Shown: positions 11,112 through 15,196 of the stretch, in pieces
Layout of the letters: each line of letters opens with the position of its first letter
How positions within the stretch are numbered: position 1 is the first letter of the stretch
NCBI GenBank assembly: GCA_007125985.1
Contig: SLCE01000238.1
Coordinates: 1 to 34,730 of the forward strand
Direction: 5' to 3'
Length of the DNA stretch: 34,730 bases
Source of the DNA: Ectothiorhodospiraceae bacterium
Lineage (GTDB): Bacteria > Pseudomonadota > Gammaproteobacteria > Nitrococcales > Aquisalimonadaceae
The notes under the pieces: model-generated
What the model saw: the letters and a program-made list of their open reading frames with translations, nothing else
What the model was told of the DNA's origin: nothing
Databases searched by the model: none
Translations under genes and position numbers: made by a program

Positions 11112-11156
11112 CACGAACCGGCGTGTGGACGGTACACAGCGTGGAGGAGGTCATCC

Positions 11157-12002
11157 ATGAATCGGGAAATGCTCCGCGATCAGCGCGTTGCCGCCGTGCA
11201 GATGGCGTCCGGGCCGCGGGTGGATGCCAACCTGCAGGAAGTGAGGCGGCTGACCGCCATGGCGGTGGAGCAGGGTGCTTCGCTGGTGGTACTGCCGGAG
11301 AACGTGGCCCTGATGGGCATGAAAGAGACGGACAAGCTGGCCCATCGGGAGCATCCGGGCAAAGGGCCGATGCAGGATTTTTTCGCCGAGGTCGCGGCGC
11401 ACCACGGTATCTGGATCGTTGCGGGCACCATTCCGCTGTTCGGCCCGGAGGAAAACCGGGCGCGACAAAGCTGCCTGCTGTTCGATGACCGCGGCCGGCA
11501 GGTGGCCCGTTACGACAAGATCCACCTGTTCGACGTGGAGGTGGAGGGGGACACCACCTACCGGGAGAGCGCCAGCCTGGCGCCGGGTGACCGCGTGGTG
11601 GTTGTGGACACGCCGTTTGGCCGCCTCGGACTCTCGGTCTGTTACGATCTGCGGTTTCCGGAGCTGTACCGGATCATGGCAGACCAGGGCGTGGAACTTA
11701 TCGTCGCTCCGTCTGCCTTTACTGCCAAGACCGGCGAGGCGCACTGGTCCACGCTCCTGCGTGCCCGGGCCATCGAAAATCTCAGTTATGTAGTTGCCGC
11801 CGCGCAGGGCGGCTACCACGTCAACGGCCGCGACACCCATGGCCACAGCATGATCGTGGACCCATGGGGGCAGGTGCTGGACGAACTCCCGCGCGGCTCC
11901 GGTGTGGTGGTGGCCGATCTGGATCTGGAACGCCTGCGGCGGGTGCGTGAACGCTTCCCGGCGCTGGCCCATCGCCGGTTCCGCTGCCACGGCGGCCGGT
12001 GA
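11157..12002 (+). CDS. Carbon-nitrogen hydrolase family protein (nitrilase/Nit-like amidase)
   Basis: RVAAVQMASG N-terminus, LVVLPENV (Glu), RYDKIHLFD (Lys), LSVCYDLRFPELYR (Cys) nitrilase triad motifs. Confidence 0.94.
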   Translation: MNREMLRDQRVAAVQMASGPRVDANLQEVRRLTAMAVEQGASLVVLPENVALMGMKETDKLAHREHPGKGPMQDFFAEVAAHHGIWIVAGTIPLFGPEENRARQSCLLFDDRGRQVARYDKIHLFDVEVEGDTTYRESASLAPGDRVVVVDTPFGRLGLSVCYDLRFPELYRIMADQGVELIVAPSAFTAKTGEAHWSTLLRARAIENLSYVVAAAQGGYHVNGRDTHGHSMIVDPWGQVLDELPRGSGVVVADLDLERLRRVRERFPALAHRRFRCHGGR

Positions 12003-12031: not shown

Positions 12032-13471
12032 ATGCAGCAATCCCTGGACATAGCCCGCGAGACCCTGTTTGCCCCCGCCGGCATCGGGGAGTCCGAACTG
12101 GAGCAGGTGTTTGCAAGGCTGATGACGCCCAGTGTGGATATGGCCGATCTCTACTTCCAGAGTTCGCGCCAGGAATCCTGGGTGCTGGAAGACGGCATCA
12201 TCAAGCAGGGCAGCCACAACATCGACCAGGGTGTGGGCGTGCGCGCCATCAGTGGTGAGAAAACCGGCTTTGCCTACTCCGACGATATCGTCATGCCGGC
12301 GCTGCTGGAGGCATCGGGCGCCGCGCGGGCCATTGCCCGGTCCGGTGAATCCGGGCGCCTCAAGGCCTGGGCATCCGGGCGCGGCACCAGTCTCTATACG
12401 CCGCTGGACCCCTTGGAAACCCTGTCCACCGAGGAAAAAATCGACCTGCTGCGCCGGGTGGATGCCGAGGCGCGCCGGCAGGATCCCCGGGTGGAGCAGG
12501 TCATCGTCAGTCTTTCGGGCCTCCACGACGTGGTGCTCGTGGCCGATAGCGATGGCCGCTTGAACGCGGATGTACGCCCATTGGTGCGGCTCAACGTGAT
12601 GGTGCTGGCGTCACAGCACGGCCGTCGCGAAAACGGTTCCGCCGGTGGTGGTGGCCGCGTGGGCTACGAGTATTTTTTGGATGACGACCGGGCCCTGGGG
12701 TATGCCCGGGAAGCGGTACGTCAGGCACTGGTGAATCTGGAAGCAGTGGACGCACCGGCGGGTACCATGCCCGTGGTGTTGGGGCCGGGATGGCCTGGTG
12801 TGTTGCTGCACGAGGCCATCGGCCACGGCCTGGAAGGGGACTTCAACCGCAAGGGCACATCCGCGTTTTCCGGACGCCTGGGCGAGCGCGTGGCGTCCGA
12901 GTACTGCACAGTGGTGGATGATGGCACCCTGGCCGGCCGCCGGGGCTCGCTGAGCGTGGATGACGAGGGTGAACCCAGTCAGTGCACCACGCTGATCGAG
13001 AACGGTATTCTCCGCGGCTACATGCAGGACCGCATGAACGCGCGGCTGATGAAGACGAGCCCCACGGGCAACGGCCGGCGCGAGTCCTACGCACATCTGC
13101 CCATGCCGCGTATGACCAACACCTACATGCTGAACGGGCCGCATGATCCGGATGAGATCATCCGCAGTGTGGATCGCGGGCTGTACGCGGTGAATTTCGG
13201 GGGCGGGCAGGTGGATATCACCTCCGGCAAGTTCGTATTCTCCGCCAGCGAGGCCTACCTTATCGAGAACGGCCGCGTCACCCGCCCCGTTAAAGGGGCC
13301 ACACTGATCGGTAATGGCCCGGATGTGCTCACCCGCGTCAGCATGGTGGGGAACGACATGAAGCTGGACACCGGCATCGGCGTCTGTGGCAAGGACGGGC
13401 AGAGCGTACCCGTGGGGGTGGGTCAGCCCACCCTCAAGGTGGATGCGCTTACGGTCGGGGGTACATCCTGA
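12032..13471 (+). CDS. tldD: Metalloprotease TldD
   Basis: [38 protein letters not shown] contains the HExxxH TldD motif. Confidence 0.97.
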
Positions 13472-13515
13472 CGGGCCGCTTGGAGACCTTGGTGGACGCG
13501 GCGGCACCCAGGATT

Positions 13516-13724
13516 GGGCGGTGGTGGCCGGGTCTGGTGGCTAAACGGCTTGTCGGTCACCGTAACCGGTGACCCGATACCCTGCAGTACTCGGCCCAGG
13601 CGGGGGCTGCCGAACTCGCTCCGGCCCTGACAGGCCTCCGCTCAAACAGGCGGCAGCCCCGTTCCCGCCTGGCCCTGCGTGCTTCGGCTGCGCCGAAAGC
13701 CACCAGACCCGGCCACCACCGCCC
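13516..13724. repeat. ~209-bp palindromic, MITE-like element with perfect 27-bp terminal inverted repeats and nested inverted repeats
   Basis: 13516-13542 GGGCGGTGGTGGCCGGGTCTGGTGGCT is the exact reverse complement of 13698-13724 AGCCACCAGACCCGGCCACCACCGCCC; nested 13596-13612 / 13651-13672 and 13555-13574 inverted repeats. Confidence 0.85.
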
Positions 13725-13766
13725 AGAGGTTGCCTGTGCCGCCATTGATTATGCCCGCAGGCGATG

Positions 13767-13802
13767 CTCTCGCTCAGGCGGTCGGCGCGTTTGAGCGGAG
13801 AG
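13767..13802. repeat. Inverted repeat CTCTCGCTCA ... TGAGCG(G)AGAG upstream of pmbA
   Basis: 10-bp stem with one bulged base, ends ~38 bp before the pmbA ATG. Confidence 0.6.
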
Positions 13803-13840
13803 ATGTTAACCATTTGCTGAACAAGACAGGTAAGAGTGTC

Positions 13841-15196
13841 ATGCAGACGACCTTGACCCGCAATGGCAGCACGCTGCCCTCCCAGGCCGAACTGACCCAG
13901 CTGGTGGAACAGGTCCTGGATGAGGCCAGGCGCTGCGGTGCCACCGCAGCGGAAGCATCGGCCAGCGTGGCCACGGGGCTGTCCGTGGACGTCCGGCAGC
14001 GGGAAGTGGATACGCTGGAGCACCAGCGTGACCGGTCGCTGGCGGTCGCCGTCTATTTCGGCCAGCGTCAGGGAACGGCCAGTTCGGCGGATTTCTCGCC
14101 CGCCTCAGTGCGGGCAACCGTGAAGGCGGCCTGCGCGATCGCGCGGCATACCTCGGAAGACCCGGCCCAGGGGCTTGCCGATCCGGAACTGCTGGCACGG
14201 GATGTGCCGGACCTGGATCTGCATCATCCGTGGGATCTGCAGGCGGACGAGGCCATTGAGTTGGCGCTGGCCTGTGAGGCGGCGGCGCTGGACGCGGATC
14301 CGCGCATCACCAACTCTGACGGCGCCGGTGTGTCGACCAATGCCGCCGTGCGTGTCTACGGTAACAGCAACGGCTTCCTCGGGGCGGTGCGGAGCACCCA
14401 GCACAGCATCAACTGCCGCGTGATCGCCAGCGATGAGGCGGGCATGCAGCGGGATTACTGGTACACCGTCAGCCGGGTGCCCGATGCGCTGGAGGCCGCC
14501 GACCTGGTGGGGCGCAACGCAGCCGAGCAGGCATTGCGCCGGCTGGGTAGTCGCCGCTTGGGTACGCGTAAGGTTCCGGTGGTCTACCATGCGCCGGTCG
14601 CCCGTGGTTTGCTCGGCAATTTCGTCAGTGCGGTCAACGGCGGCGCACTGTATCGGAAGGCGTCCTTCCTGCTGGACAAGCTCGGTGAACCCGTATTTGC
14701 GGACTGGGTACGGCTGTCGGAGCACCCTCATCTACCCCGTGAGCTCGGGAGTGCCGCCTTCGACCATGAAGGGGTGGCCACCCGGGAGCGGGATCTGGTG
14801 CGTGATGGTGTGCTGCAAGGCTATGTGCTCAGCAGCTACTCGGCCCGCAAGCTCGGTATGACCACCACGGGCAACGCGGGCGGTGTGCATAACCTGCGTC
14901 TGGAGCCCGGCCATCGGGATTTCAACGGCCTGCTGGCGGAGATGGGCACCGGTCTGCTCGTGACCGAACTGATGGGGCAGGGCGTGAACCTGGTGACTGG
15001 TGACTACTCCCGGGGTGCCACGGGTTTCTGGGTGGAAAATGGTGAGATTGCCTACCCCGTGGAGGAGATCACCGTGGCCGGCAATCTGCGGGATATATTC
15101 CTGGGGCTGCAGGACGCCGCCACTGATGTGGATACCCGTGGCGGCATTCACACCGGCTCCATTCTGGTGGATGCCATGACAGTGGCTGGCGAATAG
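13841..15196 (+). CDS. pmbA: Metalloprotease PmbA/TldE
   Basis: VATGLSVDVRQREVDTLEHQRDRSLAVAVYFGQRQGTASSADFS; C-terminal GAATGFW-like GATGFWVENGEIAYPVEEITVAGNLRDIFLGL. ATG chosen at 13841. Confidence 0.96.
   Translation: MQTTLTRNGSTLPSQAELTQLVEQVLDEARRCGATAAEASASVATGLSVDVRQREVDTLEHQRDRSLAVAVYFGQRQGTASSADFSPASVRATVKAACAIARHTSEDPAQGLADPELLARDVPDLDLHHPWDLQADEAIELALACEAAALDADPRITNSDGAGVSTNAAVRVYGNSNGFLGAVRSTQHSINCRVIASDEAGMQRDYWYTVSRVPDALEAADLVGRNAAEQALRRLGSRRLGTRKVPVVYHAPVARGLLGNFVSAVNGGALYRKASFLLDKLGEPVFADWVRLSEHPHLPRELGSAAFDHEGVATRERDLVRDGVLQGYVLSSYSARKLGMTTTGNAGGVHNLRLEPGHRDFNGLLAEMGTGLLVTELMGQGVNLVTGDYSRGATGFWVENGEIAYPVEEITVAGNLRDIFLGLQDAATDVDTRGGIHTGSILVDAMTVAGE

Follow-up and report, generated by a model that had tools for sequence, protein, structure and literature searches.

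Repeats of the REP/REPIN/BIME type, which are RAYT-associated, are dispersed intergenic hairpins with covarying stems that often occur as convergent pairs. Some REP dimers lie within longer palindromes, and GT pairs are often observed in GTAG REPs (PMC3733652). YPAL and ERIC are non-coding palindromes of about 130-170 bp that form a single long hairpin and are dispersed between genes. These families are defined by a sequence that is common along the element. Both have been named as enterobacterial interspersed palindromic repeats (PMC2267715). MITEs (e.g. Correia elements and MITEAba12) are short and non-autonomous and carry terminal inverted repeats, while the attC sites of integrons have stems that vary yet stay paired and are recognised through their folded structure.

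We analysed a palindrome in the spacer between tldD and pmbA of an Ectothiorhodospiraceae bacterium; the whole stretch of 34,730 nucleotides that was studied is called the window below. This element is best compared with REP/REPIN and with YPAL, ERIC and similar long palindromic repeats. In contrast to REP/REPIN, however, the core is about 50 nt long and has, in place of the GTAG/CGTC tag at the foot of the hairpin, a conserved loop of the 19-nt class, the whole unit measures 200-350 bp and is without a linked Y1 transposase, and the covariation is strictly Watson-Crick. Inverted hairpin pairs, a feature of REP/REPIN, were found in the family, and in the window itself only as a tentative partner remnant. 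From YPAL and ERIC the element is set apart by description, as here the loop alone is conserved and the arms are copy-specific. Unlike in MITEs, the terminal repeats are not conserved between copies, and neither a target duplication nor a parent IS was found. The element differs from attC in lacking RYYYAAC/GTTRRRY boxes on either strand and a cassette array, as well as in size and loop. Unusual features are the arms, which are copy-specific yet mirrored, the conserved loop, and the fact that no mobiliser was found.

The unit in the tldD-pmbA spacer, its second copy and empty sites

The unit spans 211 bp (13515-13725), ends in perfect inverted repeats of 28 bp and interrupts neither tldD nor pmbA (Table 1). 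The original prediction had placed a palindrome of about 209 bp with 27-bp ends between these genes; the palindrome was confirmed. As had been noted, the two ends are perfect reverse complements of each other, over 28 nt when T13515 and A13725 are counted, and all of the nested palindromes that had been listed are present. Such an arrangement was also rightly regarded as beyond chance, since perfect inverted repeats of 28 bp separated by at most 300 bp are expected only about 1e-9 times (analytic estimate from window size and composition). The suggested folding check gave -147 kcal/mol for the RNA fold of the element, compared to -103.7 ± 4.9 kcal/mol for dinucleotide shuffles (z = -8.9). In agreement with the prediction, no convincing ORF lies inside (overlapping it are a frame of 160 aa on the reverse strand and one that extends pmbA at its 5' end), and no direct target duplication was found next to the window arms. 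A direct-repeat pair matching the one around the core hairpin is also present in related copies of the element. The sequence of the P2 stem is wholly different in G010 and G014.

Table 1. Positions of the palindromic unit, its parts and the neighbouring genes in the window
Feature	Position	Strand	Remarks
tldD	12032..13471	+	upstream gene; TGA stop 13469-13471
Left terminal arm	13515..13542	+	28 bp; perfect inverted repeat with right arm
5' side hairpin P2	13555..13574	+	GGTCACCGTAACCGGTGACC; palindrome GGTCACCG-TAAC-CGGTGACC
Direct repeat (imperfect), first copy	13582..13594	+	CTGCAGTACTCGG; brackets core hairpin
Stem P3, 5' strand	13596..13604	+	nested pair CCAGGCGGG/CCCGCCTGG
Stem P4, 5' strand	13603..13612	+	nested pair GGGGCTGCCG/CGGCAGCCCC; covarying, beneath conserved loop; two-base overlap with the end of the P3 run
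Core hairpin	13606..13657	+	match to covariance model R1, 61.7 bits
Conserved loop, 5' half	13613..13623	+	AACTCGCTCCG
Apical hairpin	13623..13636	+	GGCCCTGACAGGCC; variable, covarying; GGTCCTGACTGACC in copy 2
Conserved loop, 3' half	13638..13648	+	CCGCTCAAACA
Stem P4, 3' strand	13651..13660	+	
Stem P3, 3' strand	13664..13672	+	
Bracketing direct repeat, second copy	13675..13687	+	CTGCGTGCTTCGG
Small hairpin	13683..13697	+	TTCGGCTGCGCCGAA
Right terminal arm	13698..13725	-	pairs perfectly with left arm
Candidate partner remnant	13767..13802	-	CTCCGCTCAAAC on the minus strand; 12-nt core match (13789-13800 on the plus strand); tentative
pmbA	13840..15196	+	downstream gene; ATG 13840 most likely the start, judged from the start aligned in L017

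When the window's own 3.24-Mb draft genome was searched for copies, a second one was found, showing that the element is not single-copy. It is split between the end of contig C29 (inside the left arm) and the start of C243 (inside the element). In two genomes of the same genus, G001 and G002, the genes that flank this copy are found on a single contig at a distance of 0.6-1 kb, and the two pieces are therefore very probably one copy. The interiors of copies 1 and 2 are identical at 134 of 149 positions (90%); between their arms there are two indels and one substitution, and every one of these changes appears in both arms as a mirror image. Beside copy 2 (L002, about 230-270, on C243) we noticed a short palindrome, GGTGGCAACCGCGTTCGGCGGTTACCACC, of which G001 has several copies of 82-86% identity and which looks like an unrelated REP-type repeat.

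The orthologous spacer was compared as well. In L017, the closest relative with the locus (TldD 93% identical), the tldD-pmbA spacer is about 25 nt long and element-free, so that either the window acquired the element here by insertion or L017 lost it. Also missing from L017 are about 44 nt upstream and about 95 nt downstream of the element, the downstream part including CTCCGCTCAAAC. The stretch at 13767-13802 may possibly be a degenerate remnant of a convergent partner copy, a tentative assignment based on the short core match; a complete core was not recovered there by R1 with filters off. The same stretch holds the inverted repeat CTCTCGCTCAGGCGG...GTTTGAGCGGAGAG.

Empty sites were observed at other loci too. 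Two loci of G037 are empty in G039, and the fabI-ppiD site is empty in G041, G043, G029 and G031. At such sites, where the relatives are about 80% identical or the spacers are rearranged, neither a target-site duplication nor a precise excision could be made out cleanly, and no target duplication was seen by eye at the other measured family copies.

A structured repeat family of Gammaproteobacteria

The palindrome in the window is real and belongs to a widespread family of structured repeats; it had not been annotated before. The family members have a conserved, strand-specific loop, AACTCGCT-(variable hairpin)-CTYCGCTCARACA, and the stems that carry it covary freely, their sequences being unrelated between lineages and complementary within each. 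In an alignment of copies from within the order and from further families, the full loop consensus was AACTCGCT-NCG-(variable hairpin)-CTY-CGCTCARACA. R1 is a covariance model of the inner core hairpin with 23 training sequences; the window copy, which is one of them, falls within the core family by its R1 score.

With R1 the family was detected in 9 of 59 relatives (E<=0.01) and, among 187 Gammaproteobacteria drawn evenly, in 13 (E<=0.001), which is about 7% and includes the doubtful G068, where the match looks like a coding chance match. The other new class members that were sampled have a complete loop on a paired stem. Independent members outside the training set were thus found in new genomes, and 11 hand-picked genomes contained 2-24 copies each. 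An exact-pattern search of the phylum sample gave no genome outside Gammaproteobacteria, and reversed control patterns gave zero matches.

Eight viral contigs were matched in the pattern search. The matches in L123, L124 and L127 look genuine; in L122, L125, L126 and L128 they resemble chance matches or matches to coding sequence. In L124, an IMG/VR contig classed as viral, a low-GC core hairpin (11121-11160) has kept the loop on stems that are AT-richer. Plasmid and phage collections gave no blastn match with the window element and one weak intergenic match, in a Comamonas plasmid, with the elements of relatives. Rfam had no match to the window spacer up to E=5 and none over the element at 13 family loci. 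A text search of papers did not find the motif sequence, and no described repeat family with such an architecture was recognised in the open-access literature searched; a prior name may exist elsewhere. The family, scattered across Gammaproteobacteria, is apparently undescribed.

The stems showed strong covariation. In A2, 85.9% of the cells were paired compared to 65.7% after shuffling, and 91 cells were double-changed compared to 28.1 ± 4.6 in shuffles, pair counts that lean towards structure because A2 was fitted to the model. The covariation score was 0.387, against 0.103 for shuffled sequences and background levels (<=0.096) for slid controls. In helix 1 only 5 one-sided (G-U) changes were counted beside 69 double changes. 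Such a scarcity of one-sided changes suggests constraint or mutation at the DNA level rather than selection on an RNA.

Mirrored arms and convergent pairs

Among the copies measured in the order, the outer arms are 26-57 bp long, and their distance to the core is almost constant. In nearly every copy the two arms agree with each other at 92-100%, but between the copies of one genome they are often almost unrelated. In G022, for instance, the cores are 92-99% identical, whereas the arms are 100% identical within and 59-67% between copies, the latter being only slightly closer than shuffled sequences. In a trio of G014 copies, whose 141-bp cores differ at 1-4 sites, one position in the arm is taken by CTGTTTC, CCTGCCC or GCTTTCC, each perfectly mirrored in the opposite arm. 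In addition, the arms of the fabI-ppiD element, which is common to G019 and G025, have changed in parallel on both sides. Recognisable arm homology (79-87%) was seen between L193, L195 and L199 of G037. Long perfect arms were not found around the core matches of most class members outside the order and are therefore a lineage feature.

Template switching homogenises the arms of inverted repeats and causes clustered mutations (PMC8604942, PMC8794818). We infer that the mirroring of the arms is best explained by this process, in single steps. Polymerase template switching between the close inverted arms would rewrite one from the other, and the arms would stay perfect as changes enter both at once. 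Point mutation with selection is disfavoured, because many coordinated arm changes would have been needed while the core barely moved. As for the fast divergence of the arms, gene conversion of cores between copies is a possible alternative. The arms would provide a natural record of template-switch rewriting, with compensatory, multi-base, mirrored changes between near-identical copies in one genome. Such changes are usually taken as proof of RNA-structure selection, which calls for caution in covariation-based RNA discovery.

Neighbouring copies at most 420 bp apart were convergent in 21 cases, on the same strand in one and divergent in none. The spacing of convergent pairs depends on the lineage and is near 200, 295, 330 or 360 bp; four further convergent pairs in G205 are 182-183 bp apart. 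With respect to genes, copies were found in co-directional (tldD>pmbA), convergent (fabI/ppiD, L166 and L167) and divergent settings (L195 before efp, L156 and L164).

A few convergent pairs lie 1-2 kb apart with other DNA between them. An autonomous version of the repeat was looked for inside such wide pairs (G087 and G558), and no transposase was found. In G087 (L104:1500-2770) convergent cores spanning 1.28 kb enclose about 1.2 kb with a 143-aa ORF that has no Pfam match, and this region could be cargo. The convergent pairs of G558 enclose ordinary genes and sRNA-Xcc1-like structures. Sub-threshold matches to RF02221 (sRNA-Xcc1; 34-39 bits, cut-off 53) were seen in this genome at L270:838-908, L271:901-971 and L131:1233-1303 and 1831-1901; those in L270 and L271 are inside the DNA between convergent repeat pairs, and the small ORFs that come after them have no Pfam family above the cut-off.

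Probable mobility and competing explanations

Taken at its most plausible, the window palindrome is a dispersed, non-autonomous structured DNA repeat, probably mobile, with arms kept by template switching, a reading that we hold to be rather probable. The varied gene settings and the several empty sites favour a repeat that is dispersed and probably mobile over a cis-acting RNA, and from the presence and absence of copies across species the repeat probably is, or recently was, mobile. The chromosomal repeat family considered in the original prediction is borne out by the second copy in the genome, the members across the order and the class, and the empty site in the closest relative. A putative enzyme would move the unit in trans, reading the folded single-stranded core and not the arms, in analogy to REPIN hairpins, which are moved by RAYT transposases. 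As the terminal repeats are not common to the copies, the conserved loop on the folded single strand is the best candidate for recognition. The window copy would have arrived between tldD and pmbA once its lineage had separated from the nearest sequenced relative, and no role in tldD or pmbA expression is evident. No mobilising enzyme was found; if the repeat is mobile, an enzyme that reads the loop should be findable.

These features could be taken further to a new class of mobile element recognised by its structure, in which the enzyme would read the folded single-stranded core via the loop, move convergent pairs as units and regenerate the arms via a hairpin intermediate. We regard this as unlikely. 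If true, the terminal repeats would be regenerated in each cycle, one arm serving as template for the other, instead of being inherited.

Alternatively, the element could be a unit of the REPIN kind that is mobilised by a tyrosine transposase (Y1/RAYT or TIRYT), with convergent hairpin pairs excised as single-stranded DNA. Both the hairpin architecture and the convergent pairing at fixed spacing resemble REP dimers, and besides the dimers inside longer palindromes there is a precedent in RAYT-like genes with flanking TIRs (PMC3733652). However, the element has no GTAG on either strand and a single CGTC, on the minus strand and outside the arms. Moreover, none of 30 Y1_Tnp loci had a convincing core (one match was marginal, E=0.02), and no Y1_Tnp gene was present in G014, which has 19 copies, or in G010, G025, G043 and G564, a set that includes draft assemblies in which the gene may be missed. 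This makes such a unit distinctly unlikely.

The original prediction had also proposed a structured RNA in the tldD-pmbA transcript. A regulatory RNA, or an mRNA stabiliser or terminator, would be in keeping with the very stable predicted fold, the strand-specific conserved loop and the position just downstream of tldD. This proposal is argued against by the lack of an Rfam match, by the same spacer being without the element in the sister species, by copies between convergent and divergent as well as co-directional genes, and by G-U pairs being almost missing from the covarying helices. In addition, there is no intrinsic-terminator-like site, and a scan of the element for transcription terminators and promoters gave none. 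We therefore consider an RNA function very unlikely.

The non-autonomous MITE suggested at the outset holds in so far as the repeat is dispersed and non-autonomous. With a classical MITE, a deleted IS remnant whose terminal inverted repeats are recognised by a transposase, the element has in common that it is short, non-coding and multi-copy, with perfect terminal inverted repeats and empty sites in relatives. Such an identity is nevertheless very improbable, since the terminal repeats are not common to the copies, even to those with 92-99% identical cores, there is no target duplication at window copy 1, no partner transposase was found, and no IS with matching termini was among the own-genome matches. 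Equally improbable is that the arms were made at insertion by fold-back copying of the target (an inverted target duplication), or that the core enters pre-existing palindromes: the arms do differ at every locus, and their outermost 7 nt (CGACCTT) at the efp site of G037 resemble the native flank, but the empty site in G039 has no arm or hairpin, some copies have arm homology (the three G037 loci above), and the G022 arms are slightly closer than shuffled ones.

Members of the family were found at contig ends in several of the draft assemblies examined. At one of the G037 loci (L166, on contig C276), 86 nt of the left flank match contig C34 of G039 at 94%, and this stretch looks like a second, unrelated repeat.
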